Shown piece after piece: positions 496 through 34,311 of a stretch of DNA of 39,572 nt. Under the pieces are notes generated by a model that worked only from the letters and a program-made list of their open reading frames with translations, made no database searches and was not told where the DNA came from. Source of the DNA: an uncultured bacterium (lineage in GTDB: Bacteria > Nitrospirota > Thermodesulfovibrionia > Thermodesulfovibrionales > Thermodesulfovibrionaceae); assembly GCA_937924475.1 (NCBI GenBank), contig CALDSV010000069.1, positions 1-39,572 of the forward strand, written 5' to 3'. Within the stretch, counting starts at the first letter, position 1; each line of letters begins with the position of its first letter. The position numbers and the translations under genes were made by a program.

Positions 496-1896
496 ATGTT
501 TCCAAGAATTTTTATAGCAGGTGTCAGAGGTGGTTCCGGGAAAACCACGGTTACCTTAGCTATTATTTCAATTTTAAAAAAACTGGGCTTAAATGTTATC
601 ACTTTTAAAAAAGGTCCTGACTATATAGACAGCGGTTGGCTAAATCTCTTCTCTAATAATCCTTGTTACAATCTTGATACCTTTATGATGCCTAAAGATA
701 AAATAATTCACTCTTTTATAAGTAGAGCAAAAGGAAAGGTAGCTGTTATAGAAGGTAACAGAGGGCTTTTTGATGGCTTAGATGCAGAAGGCTCTGTCAG
801 TTCTGCAGAGCTTGCTAAATTACTAAAAAGTCCTATTATCTTAGTAGTAGATTGCACTAAAATTACCCGCTCAGTGGCTGCTTTAATTAATGGATTCCTT
901 AATTTTGACAGAGAGTTAGAGATTAAAGGGGTAGTGCTAAATCAGATTGCCAATGCAAGGCATGAAAAAATAATTAAAGATTCCATTAAAAAATATTGCT
1001 CCATACAAATAGTAGGAGCAATTCCAAGATTTAAAAATATAAAGATGCCTGAAAGACACATGGGACTTCTTCCTTATCAAGAACATGAAAGGATTGAAGA
1101 AGCTAAGGAATTCATACAGAAAGCTTCAGAATACTTAGAGGAAGATAAAATTTTACAGATAGTAAAAAATGCGCCGACTTTAGAATACAATCCACAAAAT
1201 AAGGAAATCCCGCCTATTGGAAAGGGATTAAAAATCGGAATTATAAGAGATAAAGTTTTTCAGTTTTACTATGAAGAAAATTTGGAAGAATTAAAAAAAC
1301 ATGGTGCATATCTAGTATTTATAAACTCCCTTGAAGACAAAAAACTACCAGAAATTGACGCTCTTTACATAGGAGGAGGTTTCCCTGAGACAAATGTAAA
1401 ATATTTAAGCAATAATATGGAACTAATGAGAGAAATTAAAGACCAAGCAGACAAGGGGTTGCCTATCTACGCAGAATGTGGTGGATTCATGTATTTATGT
1501 AAAAGTTTAGCCACAGAGGAAGGGGAATTCCCCATGGCAGATATTTTTCCCTTCAGATTAAAAATGTTTAGAAAACCTCAAGCTCATGGCTATGTAATAG
1601 CCAAGATCTTTCAAAATAATCCCTTCTATCCTTTAGGAACAGAATTAAGAGGTCATGAATTTCACTACTCAAAAGTGATTAATCATGAAGAATTTACCTA
1701 TTGCCTTCATAATAGTCCATTAGAAATAACTAATAACTTTACTTTTAAAATGCTCAGAGGTGAGGGAATTATGGAAAGTTTAGACGGCGTTGTTTATAAA
1801 AATACCTTAGGAACTTATGTACATATTCATGCTTTGGGTACAGAGGAATGGGTAATGGGAATTTTAAGAAAAGCAAGACAATATAAGGAGAATTAA
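496..1896 (+). CDS. dsrN: CbiA-type cobyrinate/siroheme a,c-diamide synthase, DsrN-like
   Basis: A 466-residue two-domain amidotransferase of the CbiA/CobB family. The N-terminal ATP-binding domain opens with the P-loop GVRGGSGKTT (residues 9-18). The C-terminal class I glutaminase-like domain shows AECGGFMYL with nucleophile Cys328, GHEFHYS with His387, and GTYVHIH with His443. Family members amidate the a and c acetate chains of cobyrinic acid using ATP and glutamine. In sulfur-metabolising bacteria the homologue encoded with dsr genes, DsrN, is linked to amidation of siroheme for dissimilatory sulfite reductase. I prefer DsrN because dsrC and dsrMKJOP follow and no cobalamin gene is nearby. 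The sequence alone cannot exclude a true cobyrinate enzyme. Length is normal for CbiA and all key residues are present. A one-base gap separates it from the next gene, so the two are probably co-transcribed. Confidence 0.85.
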   Translation: MFPRIFIAGVRGGSGKTTVTLAIISILKKLGLNVITFKKGPDYIDSGWLNLFSNNPCYNLDTFMMPKDKIIHSFISRAKGKVAVIEGNRGLFDGLDAEGSVSSAELAKLLKSPIILVVDCTKITRSVAALINGFLNFDRELEIKGVVLNQIANARHEKIIKDSIKKYCSIQIVGAIPRFKNIKMPERHMGLLPYQEHERIEEAKEFIQKASEYLEEDKILQIVKNAPTLEYNPQNKEIPPIGKGLKIGIIRDKVFQFYYEENLEELKKHGAYLVFINSLEDKKLPEIDALYIGGGFPETNVKYLSNNMELMREIKDQADKGLPIYAECGGFMYLCKSLATEEGEFPMADIFPFRLKMFRKPQAHGYVIAKIFQNNPFYPLGTELRGHEFHYSKVINHEEFTYCLHNSPLEITNNFTFKMLRGEGIMESLDGVVYKNTLGTYVHIHALGTEEWVMGILRKARQYKEN

Positions 1897-1897
1897 A

Positions 1898-2872
1898 ATG
1901 CCTAAAAGAGAATTGCCCACATGCCTTTTTTGTGGCAGAGTAATTAATCCCCCTGAAGAAAAACATACTGATTTTGGGAATATTATTTTTGGTACCTGTC
2001 CTTGCGGAGCCTTATATGTCTGTGAACCCACAGGACATAATCAAGGAGAGGCTCTTACAGATGCTCTATTTCTTGCATCACCTGAAGGGATTGAAAATAT
2101 TGATTTAGGTGTTAACTATGAAATAAGAGAGAGAGATTATGACCTTAAAACCCATCAGTATATTTATATGAAAACCTATCCTTTCCAGGGAAGGCTCTTT
2201 TTCATTAAAAAATTAACGGTAGATTCGAAAACAAAATCTTATGAGAAAATTAATATCAACAAAAAAGATTTCATCTCTTTACTGGAAAATATGGATTTCG
2301 AAACAATAGAAAAAGCCTCTCTTCATAATCAGAATATTTTCTCTTGGTTAATTTCTCTGTCCTATGATAAAGAAAAGGAAATTTCTTGGAAAGCCATAGA
2401 TGCCATGGGCAAAATTGCAAAAGCTTATGTGTCAGTTAAAAATATTGAACCTCTTAGAAACACCATAAGGAAACTTCTTTGGTCTATGACTGATGAATCA
2501 GGAGGAATAGGGTGGAGATCTGCTGAATTAATTGGCGAGATAATTATGGCTGATCCTGAGCTTTTCCAAGACATAATACCAATTCTATGGTCTCAAAGAG
2601 AAGAAGAAAGCTTCCTTGAAAGTGTCCTCAGAGCTATGATCAAACTATCTAATAAAGTGGAGCTCTCAAATTACATAAAATTTGAAGATGCTGAATTAGA
2701 AAATCTTCTTAAACATGAAAGGGACGACATAAAGGCTCTAACTGCCATACTCATAGACAAAACAAAAAGGAATATAGATGTATCCGAAGAGATTAAAAAT
2801 ATAATTATCCCTGTCTACAAAAAGGGTAGAATTATGCGACTGAAAGCAGAAAAGGCTGAAAAATTTTTATAA
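1898..2872 (+). CDS. Unknown dsr-associated protein: N-terminal Cys motif plus HEAT-like helical repeats
   Basis: A 324-residue protein I cannot assign a function. The N-terminus carries five cysteines in a metal-site arrangement: CLFC (9, 12), CPC (34, 36) and Cys42, followed by a conserved-looking segment EPTGHNQGEALTDALF. From about residue 120 onward the sequence is alpha-helical and HEAT-like, with blocks such as SWKAIDAMGKIAKAYV and GGIGWRSAELIGEIIM that resemble PBS-lyase/HEAT units. There is no signal peptide or membrane segment, so it should be cytoplasmic. It starts one base after the dsrN stop, with GGAG at a proper distance before the ATG, and is followed by the dsrC promoter. By position it may help siroheme amidation, sulfite reductase maturation or DsrC function, but this is guesswork. 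The coding call is firm. Confidence 0.85.
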   Translation: MPKRELPTCLFCGRVINPPEEKHTDFGNIIFGTCPCGALYVCEPTGHNQGEALTDALFLASPEGIENIDLGVNYEIRERDYDLKTHQYIYMKTYPFQGRLFFIKKLTVDSKTKSYEKININKKDFISLLENMDFETIEKASLHNQNIFSWLISLSYDKEKEISWKAIDAMGKIAKAYVSVKNIEPLRNTIRKLLWSMTDESGGIGWRSAELIGEIIMADPELFQDIIPILWSQREEESFLESVLRAMIKLSNKVELSNYIKFEDAELENLLKHERDDIKALTAILIDKTKRNIDVSEEIKNIIIPVYKKGRIMRLKAEKAEKFL

Positions 2873-2992: not shown

Positions 2993-3328
2993 ATGGCATT
3001 TATTGAGTTTAAGGGAAAGCAGATTGAGTTGGATGAGGATGGCTACATTCAGAATCTTGATGATTGGTCACCAGAGCTTGCGGAGTACATGGCACAGCAG
3101 GATGGCATCACTCTTACAGAACAACATTGGGAAGTAATTAACTTTTTAAGAGATTATTATCAGAAATATCAGATTGCACCCATGATTAAAATTCTTGTAA
3201 AAGAAATGGCAAAAATGTTCGGACCTGAAAAAGGTAATACTAAATACCTCTACTCATTATTTCCAGATGGACCAGCAAAACAAGCCTGTAGATATGCTGG
3301 TCTTCCAAAACCAACAGGATGCGTGTAA
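2993..3328 (+). CDS. dsrC: DsrC, sulfur-carrier protein of dissimilatory sulfite reduction
   Basis: A 111-residue cytoplasmic protein. DsrC is the physiological partner of sulfite reductase DsrAB. Two C-terminal cysteines take up a sulfur atom as a trisulfide, which the DsrMKJOP complex then reduces. Here the flexible C-terminal arm ends KQACRYAGLPKPTGCV, giving Cys99 and the penultimate Cys110 separated by ten residues. That is the spacing of true DsrC, whereas TusE-type relatives keep only the last cysteine. The body (TEQHWEVINFLRDYYQKYQI, and later LFPDGPAKQAC) is typical. The start has a near-perfect ribosome binding site. The gene stands alone between its own promoter and a strong terminator, upstream of its partner complex. 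Identity is very secure. Confidence 0.97.
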   Translation: MAFIEFKGKQIELDEDGYIQNLDDWSPELAEYMAQQDGITLTEQHWEVINFLRDYYQKYQIAPMIKILVKEMAKMFGPEKGNTKYLYSLFPDGPAKQACRYAGLPKPTGCV

Positions 3329-3409: not shown

Positions 3410-3928
3410 ATGTATATTAGAGACCTCCTTTCAAAGAAAAGGAAGGCAATAGTTAACAAATCCTTTGAATTAACAATAGCCACATACCCTGAGGAAAGCC
3501 AGAGTTTTTTTAAAGAAAGTTCCAAACAGTTTACAAATCCTATTGGATACAATATTTATCAATCTATTGAAAAAATTATAGACAATATAATCAATGAAGA
3601 ATCTATTGAAAGCTTTATTTCTCCCTTAGAAGAAATTGTTCGCATAAGAGCAGTTCAAGATTTTACTCCATCTCAGGCAATAGGGTTCATATTCCTTATT
3701 AAAAAAGCCCTACAAGATGAGCTGGAAAAGGAAGTAGACCCCCTTCAACTATTAGATTTTTTAACAAGAGTCGATTCTCTTGTACTGGTGGCTTTTGACA
3801 TTTTCATGAAGTATAGAGAGAAGATATATGATCTGAAATCAAAGGAGCTTATCGACAGAACTTGGTGGATTCTTAAAAAATGGAACATCATATCAGAGAT
3901 TCAAGACAAACCATTAGAAACAAATTAA
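3410..3928 (+). CDS. RsbRD_N-type protein preceding dsrMKJOP
   Basis: A 172-residue all-helical soluble protein. Its sequence resembles the RsbR/RsbRD N-terminal domain family, a globin-like helical sensor fold; the segment IRAVQDFTPSQAIGFIFLIK (residues about 81-100) is characteristic of that family. No STAS domain, kinase domain or DNA-binding domain follows, so the sensor-like domain is free-standing. The ATG has AGGAGAG directly upstream. It sits 26 bases before dsrM in the same direction and is probably co-transcribed with the complex. From what I know of the family, small RsbRD_N proteins also occur beside dsrM in other sulfate reducers, but no role is established to my knowledge. A regulatory or assembly role for DsrMKJOP is inference. 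Confidence 0.75.
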   Translation: MYIRDLLSKKRKAIVNKSFELTIATYPEESQSFFKESSKQFTNPIGYNIYQSIEKIIDNIINEESIESFISPLEEIVRIRAVQDFTPSQAIGFIFLIKKALQDELEKEVDPLQLLDFLTRVDSLVLVAFDIFMKYREKIYDLKSKELIDRTWWILKKWNIISEIQDKPLETN

Positions 3929-3954: not shown

Positions 3955-4944
3955 ATGGGTATAGGATTAGCTTTTATAATTGTTTTAGGTTTAATCCTTT
4001 TTGCCTATATTGGGACAGAACTTCTAGGATTAAAAGGTCTCTTTGCTGTATTTTTCCCCTATTTAGCCTTAGTTATTTTCTTGATAGGCTTTATTCGCAG
4101 AGTTGTGAAATGGGGAAAATCTCCGGTTCCTTTCAGGATTCCCACAACAGCAGGTCAACAATTTTCACTTCCTTGGATTAAGTATAGTAAAATTGATAAT
4201 CCAGTCACAGGTTGGGGTGTTGCTTTGAGAATGTTTTTTGAAATAGCCTTCTTCAGATCTCTCTTTAGAAATACAAAAGCTGAAATAATGAATGGCAGAC
4301 TCTATGTAGGCTCAAACAAATGGCTATGGATCGGAGCTTTAGCTTTTCACTATTCCTTCCTGATTATCCTCATAAGACATTTAAGATTTTTCATGGCCCA
4401 GACTCCCAATTGTATCTCTATTATTGACTCCGTAGATTCCTTCTGGCAGATAGGTCTTCCAATGCTCTATATGACAGATATTATTATAGCAGCTGCTGCG
4501 CTTTATCTTCTTGGAAGAAGAATATTTAATCCTCAGGTTAAATATATCTCTCTTCCTTCAGATTATTTCCCGTTGTTTCTTATCCTTGGGATAGTAGCAA
4601 CAGGTATTTTAATGAGATATTTTTCAAGGGTTGATATCACTGCTATAAAAGAACTTACCTTAGGATTAGCCTATCTAAAACCGACTATTCCTGATGGAGT
4701 AGGAACCCTATTTTATATTCATCTTTTCCTTGTTAGTGTTCTGTTTGCCTACTTCCCCTTTAGTAAGCTTATGCACATGGGTGGTGTATTTTTGAGCCCC
4801 ACAAGAAATCTTGCTAATAACAACAGGATGGAGAGGCATGTGAATCCATGGGATTATCCAGTTAAACATCGTCATTATGAAGAATATGAAAATGAATTTA
4901 GAGAAAAAATGAAAAAAGCTGGAATACCAGTAGAAAAGGAGTGA
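3955..4944 (+). CDS. dsrM: DsrM, diheme cytochrome b subunit of DsrMKJOP
   Basis: A 329-residue integral membrane protein related to the NarI family. It binds b-type hemes and exchanges electrons between the menaquinone pool and DsrK. About six hydrophobic segments are visible: two before residue 50, then around 123-140, 165-187, 204-222 and 250-270. Candidate axial histidines lie inside or at the edge of membrane segments, including His132 and His142 in FHYSFLIILIRHLRFF, His256, and His274 in PFSKLMHMGGVFLSPTRN, a DsrM signature. The C-terminal 50 residues are charged and cytoplasmic. GAGG lies nine bases before the ATG. A four-base gap leads to dsrK. Length is normal for the family and the identity is secure from both sequence and operon order. 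Confidence 0.95.
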   Translation: MGIGLAFIIVLGLILFAYIGTELLGLKGLFAVFFPYLALVIFLIGFIRRVVKWGKSPVPFRIPTTAGQQFSLPWIKYSKIDNPVTGWGVALRMFFEIAFFRSLFRNTKAEIMNGRLYVGSNKWLWIGALAFHYSFLIILIRHLRFFMAQTPNCISIIDSVDSFWQIGLPMLYMTDIIIAAAALYLLGRRIFNPQVKYISLPSDYFPLFLILGIVATGILMRYFSRVDITAIKELTLGLAYLKPTIPDGVGTLFYIHLFLVSVLFAYFPFSKLMHMGGVFLSPTRNLANNNRMERHVNPWDYPVKHRHYEEYENEFREKMKKAGIPVEKE

Positions 4945-4948
4945 GGCC

Positions 4949-6562
4949 ATGGGACTTCCAAGACCAGATGAATTAATTTCAAATGTTAATTTAAAGAAAA
5001 TGCCATCTAAATGGTGGATGGATACTTTACCTGTGGAATTTAAGCCTGGCTATTATTGCTATGGTGCAAAGGGTAAAAATTTAGAATATGTAGGCTTTCC
5101 TAATGCAAGAGACTTCCATGTAACGGACGAAGACTGGAAGCTTCCAGAAGATTGGAAAAATATTGTACTTGAAGGCATTAAGCAAAGACTTGAAAGATTT
5201 AGATCTTTCCATGTCTTCATGGATATCTGTGTCAGATGTGGTGCCTGTGCAGACAAATGTCACTTCTTCATTGGTACTGGTGATCCAAAAAATATGCCTG
5301 TATTAAGAGCAGAACTTCTAAGGTCTGTTTACAGAAAGTATTTTACTGCTGGAGGAAAACTTTTTGGTAGAAAGGGCGGATCAAGAGAGTTAGACATAAA
5401 TGTTTTAAAAGAACTATGGTACTATTTCTATCAGTGTACAGAATGTAGACGTTGTTCTCTGTACTGCCCTTATGGAATTGATACCGCAGAAATAACAATA
5501 ATAGCAAGAGAGCTTCTAAATCTTTTAGGTCTCAATACAGACTGGATCTCTGGTCCTGTGGCAAATTGTTACAGAACAGGTAATCATCTTGGAATTGAAC
5601 CCCATACAATGAAATCTACTCTTGAGTTTATGTGTAATGATATTGAAGAAATTACTGGAATTAAAATTGACCCTCCCATAAATAAAAAAGGGGCTGAAAT
5701 ACTATTTGTAACTCCATCAGGTGACTTATTTGCAGACCCTGGTATTTATAATGCTATGGGATACATGATGCTTTTCCACGAGATAGGTCTTGACTACACC
5801 TGGAGTACCTTTGCATCAGAGGGTGGAAACTTTGGTTTCTTTACATCTTTAGAAATGGCAAAGAGACTCCATACAAAGATCTATGAAGAGGCTAAGAGAT
5901 TAAAAGTAAAATGGATACTGGGTGGTGAATGCGGCCATATGTGGAGAGTATGGCATCAGTTTCATAATACGTGGTATGGTCCAGTAGATTTTCTTGAAGA
6001 GCCCGTATCTCCTATTACAGGAACGAAATTTGAAAATGCTAAATCAAATAAAATTGTTCACATAAGTGAGTTTACTGCGGATTTAATAAGACATGGAGTT
6101 TTAAAATTTGACAAATCAAGAAATGATAACCTAATAGTTACTTTCCATGATTCTTGCAATCCCTCTCGTGGTATGGGACTTTTTGAAGAACCAAGATATA
6201 TTATCAGAAATGTGTGTAATCATTTCTATGAAATGCCTGATGAAACAATAAGAGAGCAAACATTCTGCTGCGGTGGTGGCTCTGGATTAAATGCTGGAGA
6301 AATAATGGAGCTTAGAATGAGAGGAGGATTCCCAAGAGCCAATGCAGTAAGATATGTCCATGAAAAGTTTGGGGTAAATATGTTAGCTAACATATGTGCA
6401 ATTGACAGAGCTACCTTACCTCCGCTTATGGATTATTGGGTACCTGGGGTGAGAGTTTCTGGAGTTACTGAACTTGTAGCCAATGCAATGATAATGAAGG
6501 GAGAAAAAGAAAGAACCATGAACTTAAGGATGGAGCCACTGCCAGGAAAGGAGGAACAGTAA
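4949..6562 (+). CDS. dsrK: DsrK, HdrD-like iron-sulfur catalytic subunit of DsrMKJOP
   Basis: A 537-residue soluble iron-sulfur protein that sits on the cytoplasmic face of DsrM. It is believed to reduce the DsrC trisulfide or disulfide at a special [4Fe-4S] site, like heterodisulfide reductase HdrD. Two classical cluster motifs are present: Cys94-97-100-104 (CVRCGACADKC) and Cys163-166-169-173 (CTECRRCSLYCPYG). C-terminal CCG-domain elements follow, with HDSCNPSRG (Cys403) and FCCGGGSGLNAGE (Cys440-441), plus GGECGHMW further upstream, which are the ligands expected for the non-cubane-type catalytic centre. No membrane segment or signal peptide is present. Its ATG follows the dsrM stop by four bases, with GGAG inside the end of dsrM. 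Identity is secure. Confidence 0.96.
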   Translation: MGLPRPDELISNVNLKKMPSKWWMDTLPVEFKPGYYCYGAKGKNLEYVGFPNARDFHVTDEDWKLPEDWKNIVLEGIKQRLERFRSFHVFMDICVRCGACADKCHFFIGTGDPKNMPVLRAELLRSVYRKYFTAGGKLFGRKGGSRELDINVLKELWYYFYQCTECRRCSLYCPYGIDTAEITIIARELLNLLGLNTDWISGPVANCYRTGNHLGIEPHTMKSTLEFMCNDIEEITGIKIDPPINKKGAEILFVTPSGDLFADPGIYNAMGYMMLFHEIGLDYTWSTFASEGGNFGFFTSLEMAKRLHTKIYEEAKRLKVKWILGGECGHMWRVWHQFHNTWYGPVDFLEEPVSPITGTKFENAKSNKIVHISEFTADLIRHGVLKFDKSRNDNLIVTFHDSCNPSRGMGLFEEPRYIIRNVCNHFYEMPDETIREQTFCCGGGSGLNAGEIMELRMRGGFPRANAVRYVHEKFGVNMLANICAIDRATLPPLMDYWVPGVRVSGVTELVANAMIMKGEKERTMNLRMEPLPGKEEQ

Positions 6563-6563
6563 A

Positions 6564-6965
6564 ATGTATGATGGATGGAAAATAATTCTTGGCTTAGTAG
6601 TATTTGTAATTATTGTGACTCTGCCCTTTACTATGAGCATTGGAAGGGATTATGTAAAACCTCAACCAAGCATTGATACTCCTGAAATACAGAAAATGGA
6701 AAAGAAACAATGCATTGAATCTAAGCAATACATGAGGGAAACCCATATTAAACTTCTTTACTCCTGGAAAGACTATGCTTCAAGAGAAGGAAAAAGAGTA
6801 TACATTGCCTCTGATGGAAAAGAGTACACCATAAGTCTTCAAAATACCTGCATGAAATGCCATTCAAACAAAGAAAAATTCTGTGATGAATGCCATAATT
6901 ATGTGAGCGTTAAACCCTATTGTTGGGATTGCCATATTGAGCCTAAGGTGGGAGGGTTAAAATGA
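6564..6965 (+). CDS. dsrJ: DsrJ, membrane-anchored triheme cytochrome c of DsrMKJOP
   Basis: A 133-residue periplasmic cytochrome held by an uncleaved N-terminal helix (about residues 6-24, [16 protein letters not shown]). Three c-type heme sites are visible: CMKCH (96-100), CDECH (107-111) and CWDCH (120-124). Cys50, in [10 protein letters not shown], is not part of a heme motif. It matches the conserved cysteine that in purple-sulfur-bacterial DsrJ acts as an axial heme ligand (His/Cys coordination). DsrJ is thought to pass electrons between periplasmic partners and the membrane part of the complex. AAGGAGG lies just before the ATG inside the end of dsrK, and the stop overlaps the dsrO start as ATGA. 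Length and order match the family. Confidence 0.95.
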
Positions 6966-7732
6966 TAACGAGAAGAGATTTCCTTAAAATTTCAGCCTTT
7001 GCATCCCTCATAGGACTTGGAGGATCTCTTTCCATTGAAGCACTGGAAAAGAAACAAGGACCTCAGGTTCTTAAAGACTTAAAAGCCTTGAAAGGTAAAA
7101 GATGGGCTATGGCTATTGATACCAGAAAATTTAAAACTCAGGAAGATTTTGATAAAGTAATTAAAGCCTGCCACAAAGCACATAATGTTCCAGAGATTAT
7201 AAATCCTCTTCATGAGGTAAAATGGATATGGACAGAAGACTATGAACATTCCTTTCCCGGAACCGCTGAACATTATATATCAAAGGAAGTAAAAGAGAGA
7301 AAATTCCTTCTCCTTTGCAATCACTGTGACAATGCTCCCTGCACAAGAGTTTGTCCTGTTAAAGCTACCTTCAAAAGAGAAGATGGGATAACAATGCAAG
7401 ATATGCATCGCTGCATTGGATGCAAATTCTGCATGGCTGGTTGCCCTTATGGAGCAAGAAATTATAATTTTCTTCCACCAAGAGACTACATAAAAGAGTT
7501 AAATCCTGAGTATCCTACAAGAATGTTAGGAGTCGTTGAAAAATGTACCTTCTGCAATGAAAGAATAGACAGAGGACTTCTTCCATACTGTGTTGAAGCT
7601 TCAGAGGGTAAAATCATATTTGGTGACCTCTATGACCCTAATTCTGAGATAAGAAAAGTGCTGGCTGAAAACATAATTATTCGTCGAAAAGTAGAACTTG
7701 GTACACAACCTATGGTTTTCTACATAATTTAA
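6962..7732 (+). CDS. dsrO: DsrO, periplasmic ferredoxin-like iron-sulfur subunit
   Basis: A 256-residue protein with a twin-arginine signal (TRRDFLK at residues 3-9, then a hydrophobic stretch), so it is exported folded to the periplasm. Cluster motifs are [13 protein letters not shown] (119, 122, 127, 131), [11 protein letters not shown] (151, 154, 157, 161) and a third, incomplete one, CTFC...YC (195, 198, 210), in which the expected fourth cysteine appears to be Ser214 (YCVEASEGK). An extra Cys70 occurs in [10 protein letters not shown]. The usual role is electron transfer between DsrJ and the NrfD-like DsrP. The start overlaps the dsrJ stop by four bases, which indicates translational coupling. 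Identity is secure; the missing ligand deserves a comparison with relatives. Confidence 0.95.
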
Positions 7733-7744
7733 GGGGAGGTAAAA

Positions 7745-8935
7745 ATGCTTGATTTAGCGTTAAAAGGCAGACCAAGATACTGGATTTGGGTATCTTTTCT
7801 TATAACCATGATAATTATAGGATTTATATGCTGGATGAGAGAGCATCATGTAGGTGCAGCACTTACAACTGGTCTAAGTAGAGATGTATCTTGGGGATTT
7901 CATGTTGGTCAACTTACCTTCTTTGTAGGAGTTGCTGCTTCAGCTGTATTAGTTGTACTTCCCTACTATTTCCACAATTATAAAATCTTTGGAAGAATAG
8001 CAGTAATAGGAGAATTCTTAGCTGTTGGTTGCGTGCTCATAGCAATGCTTTCGGTTTTCGTCATTATGGGACAGCCTTCTCGTGTTTGGAATGTTATACT
8101 TCATCCAACACCTCATTCAATTATATTCTGGGATATGGTAGTGCTTATAACTTACTTATCTCTTAATCTTTTATGTGGGTGGACAATTTTACATGCAGAG
8201 AAAAAAAGTGCTCCTCCACCTAAATGGATTAAACCATTTATTTATTGGGCAATACTGTGGGCACCCTCAATCCATACAGTTACTGCTTTCTTGTATGCTG
8301 GACTGCCAGGAAGACCCCACTGGATGACAGCACTTCAGGCAGCTCACTTCTTGGCAACAGCCTTTGCTGCAGGTCCTTCTTTACTCATTATACTAAGCAT
8401 GATAATCAAAAAAGTTTCAAAATTTGATCCTGGTCAGCAAGCAATTAATAAACTTGCTGAGATAGCCACCTATGCTTTAATAATCCATCTCTTCTTCATA
8501 GGACTGGAATTCTTCACAGCCTTTTATAGCCAAATACCAGATCATATGGCTGCTCTGAAATATCTCTATGTTGGTTATGAAGGTCATACTGGAATGGTTT
8601 CTTGGATGGCAATTTCTACACTCTTAGCTTTTACAGGTTTATTAATATTCATATTCCCTCCTTTACGGAAATGGAATGTAACAAAACTAATAGGAGCTCT
8701 TTGTATTTTCTTCTCCATATGGATGGATAAAGGCTTTGCATTTGTAGTTAGCGGATTTATTCCAAATCCTTTTGATAAAGTAACCGAGGCTTGGATTGCT
8801 CTTAATGAATTTCTTGTGGCAGCTGGTGTTTGGTCAGTTGGGGCCCTTGTAATAACTGTGCTATATAAGATTGCTATTACTGTCAAAGAAAAAGCAGTTT
8901 TTGATAAATACGGGCATAAACAGATTGTTGACTAA
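7745..8935 (+). CDS. dsrP: DsrP, NrfD-like quinone-interacting membrane subunit
   Basis: A 396-residue polytopic membrane protein of the NrfD/PsrC family with about ten hydrophobic helices spread over the whole length (for example residues 14-29, 55-75, 91-112, 126-145 and 164-183). It is expected to exchange electrons with the quinone pool and with DsrO on the periplasmic side. Family-typical stretches include SWGFHVGQLTFFVGVAASA near residue 50 and GYEGHTGMVSWMA near residue 280. A GGGGAGG ribosome binding site lies directly before the ATG, 12 bases after dsrO. It is the last gene of the operon and is followed by a bidirectional terminator. Identity is secure from homology style and order. 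Confidence 0.95.
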   Translation: MLDLALKGRPRYWIWVSFLITMIIIGFICWMREHHVGAALTTGLSRDVSWGFHVGQLTFFVGVAASAVLVVLPYYFHNYKIFGRIAVIGEFLAVGCVLIAMLSVFVIMGQPSRVWNVILHPTPHSIIFWDMVVLITYLSLNLLCGWTILHAEKKSAPPPKWIKPFIYWAILWAPSIHTVTAFLYAGLPGRPHWMTALQAAHFLATAFAAGPSLLIILSMIIKKVSKFDPGQQAINKLAEIATYALIIHLFFIGLEFFTAFYSQIPDHMAALKYLYVGYEGHTGMVSWMAISTLLAFTGLLIFIFPPLRKWNVTKLIGALCIFFSIWMDKGFAFVVSGFIPNPFDKVTEAWIALNEFLVAAGVWSVGALVITVLYKIAITVKEKAVFDKYGHKQIVD

Positions 8936-13004: not shown

Positions 13005-14102
13005 AAACTGAATTGAAAAATTTAAAAGATAAAATATATTCTCTTAGAGACTGCCTTTGAAATAGATGGTTTAAAGAAAAGATTAGAAGAATTAGATATA
13101 GCATTACAAAAAGAAGAAGTATGGAGAGATTTAGACAAAACAAAAGACCTACAAAAAGAAAAAAATAAAATTCTCGAAATTTTAGAGCCTATTGAAGAAA
13201 TAACACAACGTTTTCTATACTTAGAACAAGCTTTTGAAATTGCTGAATCAGAAGAAGAAGGGTACTTACTTTTAAGAGATTTAGAAAAAGACACAGATAA
13301 AATAAAAAAACAAATTGAGACTCTGGAACTTAAGCTCCTTCTAAAGGGGGAACATGATAAGAGTAATGCAATTGTATCAATTCATCCGGGAGCTGGTGGG
13401 ACTGAGAGCCAAGATTGGGCTGAAATGCTTATGCGTATGTACTTAAGATGGGCTGAAAAAAAAGGATATAACGTCCAAATTATTGATTTGCAATCAGGAG
13501 ATGAAGCAGGAATAAAAGATGTTACTTTTACTGTAGAAGGTTCTTATGCATATGGCTACCTTAAAGCCGAAGCTGGAGTTCATAGACTTGTAAGAGTTTC
13601 TCCTTTTGATGCTAATAAAAGAAGACATACATCTTTTGCTGCTGTTCATGTATGTCCTGAGATTGAGGATACTATTCATTTAGATATTAAAGAAGATGAT
13701 TTAAGAATAGATACTTTTAGAGCATCGGGGGCTGGTGGTCAACATGTAAATAAAGTCTCTTCTGCAGTGAGAATTACTCATATTCCTACAGGAATAGTAG
13801 TTACTTGTCAAACAGAAAGGTCGCAACATAGAAATAGAGAATTAGCAATGAAAATATTGAGATCTAAACTTTTTGCTTTAATGGAGAGAGAAAAAGAAGA
13901 AAAAATTAAAGCATTAGTAGGAAATAAAAAAAATATTGGCTGGGGTAACCAAATAAGGTCTTATATTTTACATCCTTACAGATTAATTAAAGATCATCGA
14001 ACAGAAGTAGAAGCTTTTAATGTAGAACAAGTATTAGATGGAGAAATTGATATTTTTATTGAAGCTTATTTGAAAAAGGTTAATTCTAAAGTTTTAAATT
14101 AG
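12983..14102 (+). CDS. prfB: Peptide chain release factor 2, expressed by programmed +1 frameshift
   Basis: RF2 terminates translation at UGA and UAA. The zero frame starts at ATG 12983 after AGGAGGT and runs 25 codons to an in-frame TGA at 13058-13060. Moving +1 after CTT (13055-13057) continues with GAA at 13059 and stays open to 14102, giving a 372-residue protein, the normal RF2 length. The product carries the stop-recognition motif SPF at residues 206-208 and the peptide-release motif GGQ at 251-253, within one residue of the Escherichia coli positions. So this is the classical autoregulatory frameshift, not a broken gene. The start lies inside the end of lnt, indicating translational coupling. 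No clear terminator follows. Confidence 0.95.
13046..13060 (+). promoter_or_regulatory. prfB programmed +1 frameshift site
   Basis: AGAGAC, a three-base spacer TGC, then CTT TGA. The peptidyl-tRNA-Leu can slip from CTT to TTT, skipping one base at the UGA. The spacing is canonical, but the Shine-Dalgarno-like element is weak (AGAG rather than AGGGGG) and the base after TGA is A rather than the common C. Confidence 0.9.
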
Positions 14103-32373: not shown

Positions 32374-32418
32374 AGTTGTGTAATTTTGTTTCTCTATCGA
32401 TTATGTGGAGGTTTTTTT

Positions 32419-34311
32419 ATGAAAAAAAACATTAAAAAACTTATTTTTAAATTACTTAATGATGAAGATCCTTCTGAAAGAAGATATGCTGCAGAGGAAC
32501 TAACCTACTTTGATGAAAGAGCTGTATATCCTCTTATTAAGGCATTGAAAGATGAAAGCCCTGCAGTGCAAGATGCTGCTACACAGGCACTCATAGCCAT
32601 TGGAACATCCTTAGATGAGGATAGATTTAGCAGTAATCCGGGAGAGTTAGTAACCTATATGGTGATTCCTCTTCTGAGAGAAGAAGAGGCTTATATAAGA
32701 AATACAGCTTTACTTATTCTTACAGAAATAGGAAATAAGGCTCCTTTTTTGATCTATCAACTTCTAAAAGATAAAGATCCCGATGTAAGAAAATTCGGTC
32801 TTGACCTTATAGCTGATATTAAAAGTGGTTTTGATGGTGAAAAAGTTATTCCTCTTTTGAAAGATCCCAATGCCAATGTAAGAGCTGCTGCAGCAAGAGC
32901 AATTGGTGAATTAAGATATGAGAAAGCTGTTTCAGCATTAATTGAATGTCTTAATGATGAAGAATGGGTTTCCTTTTATGTTCTTCAGGCTTTAGCCTCT
33001 TTGCGTTCCTCAGATGCTGCAAAGGCTATAGGAGAACTTCTTCTCACTACAGATTCTCTTTTAGTTAAGGCAGAAGCAATAGATACTCTTGGAAAAATAG
33101 GAACACAAGAAGTAATTGAACCTTTATTAAAGTATTATCCCATTGCCACTAAGGATGAAAAAAGAGAAATAATAAAAGCCTTAGTAAGAGTTGAGGCTTT
33201 ACCCAAGGATGAAGATATAAAGGATGAACTGCTAAGTTTAATCAAAGAAGGTGAATGGGAGGAGAAAGCTTTAGCCTTCAAAGGAGTCAAAATAACAAAT
33301 TTAAAAGAAGCAGTGCCTTTACTGGTTGAAGAAGCTGGGAAACTTGATCCTTCTTGTTTTGATTATGATGAGAAAATATCTTTAATTCAAGACACACTCC
33401 TTGGTATAGACTCAGAGGAGGAATTATTATTTTTACTTGAAAAAGACAAGTTAAAATACAGAGCAAAGGCTTTTGTTATAAATACTCTTGGTAAAATGAG
33501 GAGTACGAAAGCTATACCAACTTTATTAAGATTTCTTGAGGATATAAAGAGAGACATAAGAATAGCTTCAGCAAAGGCACTTGGTAACATTGGAGATAAA
33601 GAATCTGTTCAACCTCTGGTTGCTCGCAGTGTAGAGGATGTTGATGTAAACGTACGTAAAGCTGCCATAGAAGCTTTAGGCATGATTAGAGCAAAAGAGG
33701 CTTTTGAACCTTTGTTAGAACTTGTTCAGAAAGAAACTTATCCTGATGTCATAGAAAGCATCGTTATTTCTTTGATAGAAATAGATCAGGATAGATTTCT
33801 AAATAATTTAAAATCTTACAGTACTGAAGTAAAACTTGCAGTGGCAAATGTTACTTATTCTTTAGATATTCTTAACATGCTTCTTCAGTGTGACATTCTT
33901 GACGTAAGAAAAGCTGCTATAATGGCACTTGGTAAATTGGGAACTCCAGAGGCAATTTCTAAAATTACGGAATTTATATTTTCAGAAAATAAGGAAATAA
34001 AAAAGGCAGCTATTTCTGCTCTTGGTGAAGCACAGTTTTGTTCTGACCTTTTGTTTGAATGCCTAAATGATGAGGATCCTTGGATAAGATATTATACAGT
34101 TAAGGCATTAAGTAAAAGTTGTGAACCTGAAATATTAATTGAAAAATTAACTCCCTTATTAGATGATCCTTTCCCCCCTGTAGTTATAGCCACCATTGAG
34201 GTATTAAGCTTCTTTGGAGGAAGCGAGATTTATGATATTCTATACTCTAAGAAGGAGCATCCTAATAAGGAGATAAGAGAGAAAATAGAGGAGGTATTAA
34301 GTAGAATATGA
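32419..34311 (+). CDS. HEAT-repeat protein leading the chemotaxis operon
   Basis: A 630-residue soluble protein made almost wholly of HEAT/PBS-lyase-type repeats of about 30 residues. Examples are DERAVYPLIKALKDESPAVQ, EKAVSALIECLNDEEWVSFY, TKAIPTLLRFLEDIKRDIRI and KESVQPLVARSVEDVDVNVR. Repeats of this form act as protein-binding scaffolds, and I see no catalytic motif. I choose ATG 32419, seven bases after GTGGAGG, rather than an in-frame upstream start at 32386 without such a site. The stop overlaps cheR as ATGA, so the protein is made together with the adaptation enzyme. Its partner is unknown; a scaffold for chemotaxis or motor proteins is inference. PBS-lyase activity is unlikely, since phycobilins are not expected here. 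Confidence 0.85.
   Translation: MKKNIKKLIFKLLNDEDPSERRYAAEELTYFDERAVYPLIKALKDESPAVQDAATQALIAIGTSLDEDRFSSNPGELVTYMVIPLLREEEAYIRNTALLILTEIGNKAPFLIYQLLKDKDPDVRKFGLDLIADIKSGFDGEKVIPLLKDPNANVRAAAARAIGELRYEKAVSALIECLNDEEWVSFYVLQALASLRSSDAAKAIGELLLTTDSLLVKAEAIDTLGKIGTQEVIEPLLKYYPIATKDEKREIIKALVRVEALPKDEDIKDELLSLIKEGEWEEKALAFKGVKITNLKEAVPLLVEEAGKLDPSCFDYDEKISLIQDTLLGIDSEEELLFLLEKDKLKYRAKAFVINTLGKMRSTKAIPTLLRFLEDIKRDIRIASAKALGNIGDKESVQPLVARSVEDVDVNVRKAAIEALGMIRAKEAFEPLLELVQKETYPDVIESIVISLIEIDQDRFLNNLKSYSTEVKLAVANVTYSLDILNMLLQCDILDVRKAAIMALGKLGTPEAISKITEFIFSENKEIKKAAISALGEAQFCSDLLFECLNDEDPWIRYYTVKALSKSCEPEILIEKLTPLLDDPFPPVVIATIEVLSFFGGSEIYDILYSKKEHPNKEIREKIEEVLSRI

Follow-up and report, generated by a model that had tools for sequence, protein, structure and literature searches.

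Gene P0001, which lies between dsrN and dsrC in the window (the whole stretch of 39,572 nucleotides analysed here), is a real gene and a fusion of two proteins, a four-cysteine domain that we call CysN and a HEAT-repeat domain (Table 1). Within this phylum its link to the dissimilatory sulfite reduction (Dsr) pathway, which drives sulfate respiration, is well supported, and P0001 very probably serves this pathway. We know of no settled account of how the siroheme-[4Fe-4S] enzyme DsrAB is assembled or how DsrC is delivered to it, and a pair of proteins with a clear genetic partner in DsrC is a concrete target for the genetics of sulfate reduction. An earlier note on this DNA had described one protein with five N-terminal cysteines, at residues 9, 12, 34, 36 and 42, followed by a helical-repeat scaffold. 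The cysteines and the scaffold were both borne out, whereas the single protein turned out to be two separable ones.

Table 1. Features of the dsr region of the window (positions are those of the window).
Feature	Position	Strand	Basis
dsrN (siroheme amidase-type cobyrinate a,c-diamide synthase homologue)	496..1896	+	TIGR00379 452 bits, cut-off 261.4
Fused CysN-HEAT gene P0001, 324 aa	1898..2872	+	ORF and translation
CysN domain, residues 1-112, four-Cys, putatively ribbon-like; separate gene in many relatives	1898..2233	+	
Invariant Cys9, Cys12, Cys34, Cys36 (first to last codon)	1922..2005	+	112/112 non-redundant domains
Cys42, variable	2021..2023	+	kept in 46/112 domains
HEAT-repeat domain, DVU0298 family, residues ~122-286	2261..2755	+	NF045662 93.1 bits, cut-off 75; AlphaFold2 model
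DESGGIGW motif, most conserved HEAT stretch	2492..2515	+	family consensus, located in window
dsrC	2993..3328	+	TIGR03342 168.9 bits, cut-off 53.5
RsbRD_N-domain protein between dsrC and dsrM	3410..3928	+	PF14361 68.4 bits; recurs in relatives
dsrM, dsrK, dsrJ, dsrO, dsrP	3955..8935	+	ORFs

The open reading frame is exactly as first described. It starts with an ATG just 3' of a GGAG, one base after the end of dsrN, and dsrC begins 120 bp 3' of it, followed by the RsbRD_N protein and dsrMKJOP-like ORFs. The single names dsrM, dsrK, dsrJ, dsrO and dsrP are ones that we presume from characteristic features and gene order, not from a family search, and the name dsrN is a homology call, given on the match to the cobyrinate a,c-diamide synthase family and the place in the dsr cluster. 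The dsrA, dsrB and DsrD-like genes of this genome lie on another contig (C32). Homologues of P0001 with 66-94% identity over nearly the full length occur in 13 genomes of the same genus, and there are two further matches of 56% and 68% identity, the latter partial. A scan of contigs with P0001 found three loci, all from this genus, and in the Thermodesulfovibrio sp. N1 record (L033) and a genome of the same genus (G114) the match lies at identical coordinates, so that the window can be assigned to Thermodesulfovibrio. Compared with three relatives, the differences at first, second and third codon positions number 11/5/35, 50/32/166 and 84/47/172; this gathering of substitutions at third positions indicates purifying selection. 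Across 33 loci (L001-L033, among which L031-L033 duplicate L002, L003 and L012), the gene start overlaps or lies near the dsrN stop, at -8 bp in 17 of the 33 and within a range of -62 to +40, and 19-189 bp separate the gene from dsrC in the 32 loci where dsrC is present. Elsewhere in the window, a release-factor-2-like ORF (13425-14102) begins late in the protein, as would be expected if the start lay further upstream, behind a programmed frameshift.

In many relatives the two halves are adjacent but separate genes that lie between dsrN and dsrC. When 176 genomes of the order were searched, families f1 and f5 gave single matches over most of P0001; the other hits were paired partial matches in separate frames, for example to residues 3-104 and 122-250. 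One genome (G172) reads dsrA-dsrB-dsrD-dsrN-HEAT-CysN-dsrC-RsbRD-dsrMKJOP, three others (G175, G165, G142) are alike where sequence is present, and in G302 and G291 the arrangement is CysN-HEAT-dsrC. The reverse fusion, HEAT-CysN, was found in G003 and G153, and both matches lie in one open frame, also as HEAT-CysN, in G004, G151 and G155. There have been at least four separate fusions, two in each domain order: CysN-HEAT in f1+f5 and in f10, and HEAT-CysN once in f3 and once in f12. Trees were built of 91 HEAT and 112 CysN domains (FastTree, midpoint-rooted, with weak deep branches). They place the f1+f5 fusions in a single clade (support 0.987 and 0.996) and the f10 fusions in their own (1.0 in both trees). 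The f3 fusion groups with an unfused gene of f10 in the HEAT tree (0.999), and G153, which holds the f12 fusion, is sister to the unfused G152 (0.941 and 0.958). Repeated fusion of two families in both orders is a classic sign of joint work.

The tie to dissimilatory sulfite reduction that the earlier note proposed is upheld by gene content across 395 genomes of this one phylum, 184 of which were called dsrB-positive at our own threshold of E<=1e-40 (176 at the curated cut-off). HEAT scored over its family cut-off in 167 of the 395 genomes and CysN matched in 158. Either half is present in 171 of the 184 dsrB-positive genomes, as against only 6 of the 211 dsrB-negative ones; the corresponding counts are 154/184 and 4/211 for CysN, and 162/184 and 5/211 for HEAT. 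Widespread homologues in dsr-free organisms, which would have spoken against the note's reading, were thus not seen within the phylum. HEAT occurs without CysN in 19 genomes and CysN without HEAT in 10, some of these coming from incomplete assemblies. Five of the six dsrB-negative carriers encode a DsrK 71-74% identical to that of the window, and the sixth (G246) is a 74% complete genome. In one carrier, G142, dsrN-HEAT-CysN-dsrC-RsbRD-dsrMKJOP stands on a single contig, and dsrAB was probably lost to assembly, as the cluster is otherwise present. Within the order, dsrB, a close DsrK, CysN and an over-cut-off HEAT are all missing from three genomes (G001, G092, G128), with a 48% DsrK relative in G128 and a weak HEAT match (E 1.2e-7) in G092, and a further one (G036) has neither dsrB nor either half, yet holds a 71% DsrK. 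As the broad split is one deep event, independent losses are few and the co-occurrence mostly reflects one phylum-level split; as the genomes share ancestry, the Fisher p values (about 1e-66 to 1e-87) are not counted as evidence. Among 14 control genomes outside the phylum none matches NF045662, no relative was found when viral contigs were searched with the CysN alignment, and the plasmids searched gave no match to CysN or HEAT. A degenerate DNA pattern for DESGGIGW did occur in two viral contigs, where the HEAT and CysN profiles find nothing, and was set aside as chance.

Thirteen dsrB genomes carry neither half, and seven of them belong to families f23 and f26, in both of which the halves are absent. 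The combination of dsrEFH and DsrL is the gene set of oxidative Dsr. In f23, the fullest locus read (G186) holds dsrEFH, all three over the NCBIfam cut-offs, together with a DsrL-like gene, and in f26 a DsrL-like gene is present in both loci read (G177, G180); the contig of G203 is short, and these readings cover the named loci. One study of acidobacterial dsr clusters discusses DsrL and DsrEFH as oxidative Dsr genes and also places DsrL in putative sulfate reducers (PMC6018796), so that the oxidative reading of f23 and f26 is suggestive only. Reductive or oxidative type was judged here by the gene content of the exceptional loci; DsrD had been considered as a reductive marker and was rejected, since the Pfam DsrD model exceeds its cut-off in just 17 of the 395 genomes and misses the genus of the window. 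Among the other six genomes, a partial HEAT match (E 2.8e-27) was found in G338 and weak ones in G361 and G376, with none in G016, G024 and G371. G024 holds a contiguous, reductive-looking dsrABDN-dsrC-dsrMK cluster with neither half, and in the reductive-looking cluster of G318 dsrN adjoins dsrC and CysN is absent. The module is therefore not obligatory: a genome can do without it or have it scattered.

The arrangement of the genes ties CysN to dsrC. CysN loci were read in 111 genomes (the rows count G104 three times), and in 94 of the 109 with enough downstream sequence dsrC follows within 1.5 kb in the same orientation, in nearly all cases with no other dsr gene in between. In 22 rows dsrC comes after CysN though dsrN and HEAT are both undetected nearby (some flanks are short), and CysN stays with dsrC where dsrC has left dsrN and dsrAB (L144-L149, L151-L153). 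The 15 exceptions comprise five f10 genomes, nine f7/f8 genomes and G373. In f7/f8 (L161-L163, L169-L173), CysN lies away from dsr in an argC-argJ-CysN-def-fmt-DUF116 cluster, named by Pfam for L161 and judged by gene sizes for the others. For HEAT, in a neighbourhood sample that took roughly one region from each genus of the unfused clades and added the search returns, a dsr gene lies within 2.5 kb in 42 of 43 fused rows and in 28 of 47 solo rows; 15 of the solo rows have none despite room, and 4 are too short. The picture of a gene locked between dsrN and dsrC thus fits the window and is common, but the halves move apart in other families. Two other observations concern these clusters. The RsbRD_N protein (PF14361) occupies the dsrC-dsrM interval in most relatives' clusters and looks like another unstudied fixed member of them. 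Family f10 (L077, L078) has a divergent Dsr set, with dsrAB about 50% identical to those of the window's genome, a canonical Pfam DsrD, a fused CysN-HEAT gene divergent from dsrN, another HEAT gene next to dsrA and, near dsrN, a gene for a Zn_ribbon_8 (PF09723) protein.

Two other explanations were considered. Two unrelated proteins might simply hitch-hike in a cluster transferred as a block: dsr clusters probably travel as units, and both HEAT and CysN can sit elsewhere in the genome. We consider such a passive link very unlikely, given the repeated fusion in both orders, the persistence of CysN beside dsrC when clusters break up, and the retention of the halves in dsr genomes even when they are relocated. 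Alternatively, P0001 might regulate dsrC, its ribbon binding the dsrC mRNA leader or promoter while the HEAT half senses a partner, and so set the dosage of DsrC. The nearly constant place of CysN just upstream of dsrC, even at loci with dsrC separated from dsrN and dsrAB, would suit a regulator, and zinc ribbons are common among nucleic-acid-binding proteins. However, this would not account for the conservation of the HEAT half or for its link with dsrN/dsrAB, and CysN is away from dsrC in f7/f8 and f10. Moreover, promoter- and terminator-like sites at the locus are no commoner than in shuffled sequences, so no regulatory site stands out, and we regard regulation of dsrC as unlikely.

The cysteines of CysN point to a structural role. 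Cys9, Cys12, Cys34 and Cys36 had been expected to be conserved together with Cys42; the first four are invariant, and Cys42 is the one that varies. The invariant four are spaced as CxxC...CxC, and in f10 the second pair is CxxC, giving two pairs of metal-ligand-type cysteines; this is the spacing of a zinc ribbon. Four invariant cysteines beside a variable fifth suggest a structural metal site over sulfur transfer, in line with the metal-type domain foreseen in the earlier note, and the metal is probably zinc, to judge by the pattern. The stretches TGxNxG and YD...H are also conserved and are CysN's own. No Pfam or NCBIfam model matches the CysN domain of the window, and a sequence search of the PDB returned nothing convincing for it. 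AlphaFold2 modelled residues 1-120 poorly, at low confidence (pLDDT mostly 32-66), and the ribbon fold is putative, drawn from the cysteine pattern. In the sulfur-trafficking reading, which the note also offered, the N-terminal cysteines would carry persulfide or trisulfide sulfur. Five cysteines near dsrC and two solo HEAT genes of f11/f15 beside a DsrE-like gene (L043, L067, the latter also with TusA) lend it some appeal. However, all four invariant cysteines fit the CxxC...CxC metal site (CxxC in f10), the domain's only other cysteine is kept in fewer than half of the members, and none of the HEAT positions conserved at >=80% is a cysteine. Sulfur-relay carriers of the TusA/DsrE/DsrC type have an invariant free reactive cysteine, and no such residue was found across the 112 CysN domains. 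With no invariant cysteine beyond the four metal-ligand-like ones, a sulfur carrier is highly improbable.

The HEAT half is a helical-repeat solenoid, as judged from family matches and a predicted structure. NCBIfam DVU0298_fam (NF045662) matches P0001 at residues 127-292 (E 1.7e-26), spanning model positions 4-175 of 213, so that the C-terminal end of the model is unmatched. Pfam HEAT_2 matches 44 of the 50 members of the HEAT-family alignment at E<=0.1, while the window protein by itself scores below the Pfam cut-off for HEAT. An AlphaFold2 model of P0001 from four sequences (mean pLDDT 72.4, pTM 0.62) gives an alpha-solenoid from about residue 121, with pLDDT mostly 80-95 and weaker near 190-210. 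Foldseek with this model found no match at E<=0.001. A PDB sequence search with the HEAT alignment matched designed and natural solenoids, which informs on fold and not on function. The DESGGIGW region is a candidate binding face of this half, given its conservation. A second long HEAT-like protein (641 aa, recognised by eye) is encoded at 32386-34311 of the window, in a flagellar/chemotaxis stretch just before a cheR-like gene.

Another reading starts from the solo HEAT genes. In f11/f15 they recur beside a flavodiiron-type protein at six loci (L041, L049, L051, L053, L068, L116), with the ODP lactamase and flavodoxin domains found by Pfam in the two tested. P0001 might accordingly hold DsrAB or Fe-S clusters that oxygen or redox stress has damaged, and so protect or repair the Dsr system. 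However, most clusters that join the halves and dsr genes show no stress gene, and stray genes are the smaller share (of 47 solo rows, 19 are without a dsr gene in range, 4 of these being short-flanked). We therefore find stress protection quite unlikely.

The role that we favour, although only tentatively, is that of a factor for assembly or docking in the reductive Dsr pathway. P0001 would be a dedicated accessory protein of the bacterial reductive pathway with two cooperating parts. The four-cysteine, probably zinc, ribbon would work with DsrC and hold it. The HEAT solenoid would work with DsrN/DsrAB, cradling either siroheme-loaded DsrAB or DsrN as it hands over amidated siroheme. The fused protein might thus bridge these partners, maturing DsrAB and DsrC or bringing them together; either DsrAB would be completed after siroheme amidation by DsrN, or DsrC would be docked. 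The fuller version, in which a zinc-ribbon subunit for DsrC and a HEAT subunit for DsrN/DsrAB dock or mature DsrAB-DsrC, marking the reductive pathway and being absent from oxidative Dsr, is possible but more doubtful.

We found no description of CysN or of the HEAT half with Dsr in the open-access literature. The passages of two Dsr surveys that cover DsrAB, DsrC, DsrD, DsrN, DsrMKJOP, DsrT, DsrEFH and DsrL name neither half (PMC10504309, PMC12948486). Two other reports show unnamed genes, which might be related, at or close to this position: acidobacterial dsr clusters are drawn with four grey 'syntenic genes of unknown function' (PMC6018796), and an unnamed 'hyp' appears in the order dsrD-dsrN-hyp-dsrL-dsrC (PMC6338057). 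The protein called unknown in the earlier note is indeed uncharacterised, but its HEAT half is already in a named, though uncharacterised, NCBIfam family, while CysN is without a Pfam or NCBIfam family. Just one paper was found to use the name DVU0298; it puts the gene in a table of CO-dehydrogenase genes (PMC2901600), which looks like a slip.

Several known systems resemble parts of P0001. The HEAT half is a member of the NF045662 family, but the match leaves out residues 1-126 with the cysteine domain, and P0001 is a fusion. With HEAT/ARM solenoids such as designed armadillo proteins, PP2A PR65 and karyopherins it shares the alpha-solenoid (best Foldseek E about 0.004-0.014), a likeness limited to the general fold. 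CysN has the CxxC...C(x1-2)C arrangement in common with small zinc-ribbon proteins (Lar PF14354, LysW NF041070, Zn_ribbon families); the best E-values of these families for single CysN members are 7.8e-4 and 8.9e-4, whereas the window's own domain matches none of them. DsrD resembles the halves of P0001 in being a small accessory protein whose gene lies in these clusters; it is a separate gene there, and the likeness drawn here is one of cluster position.
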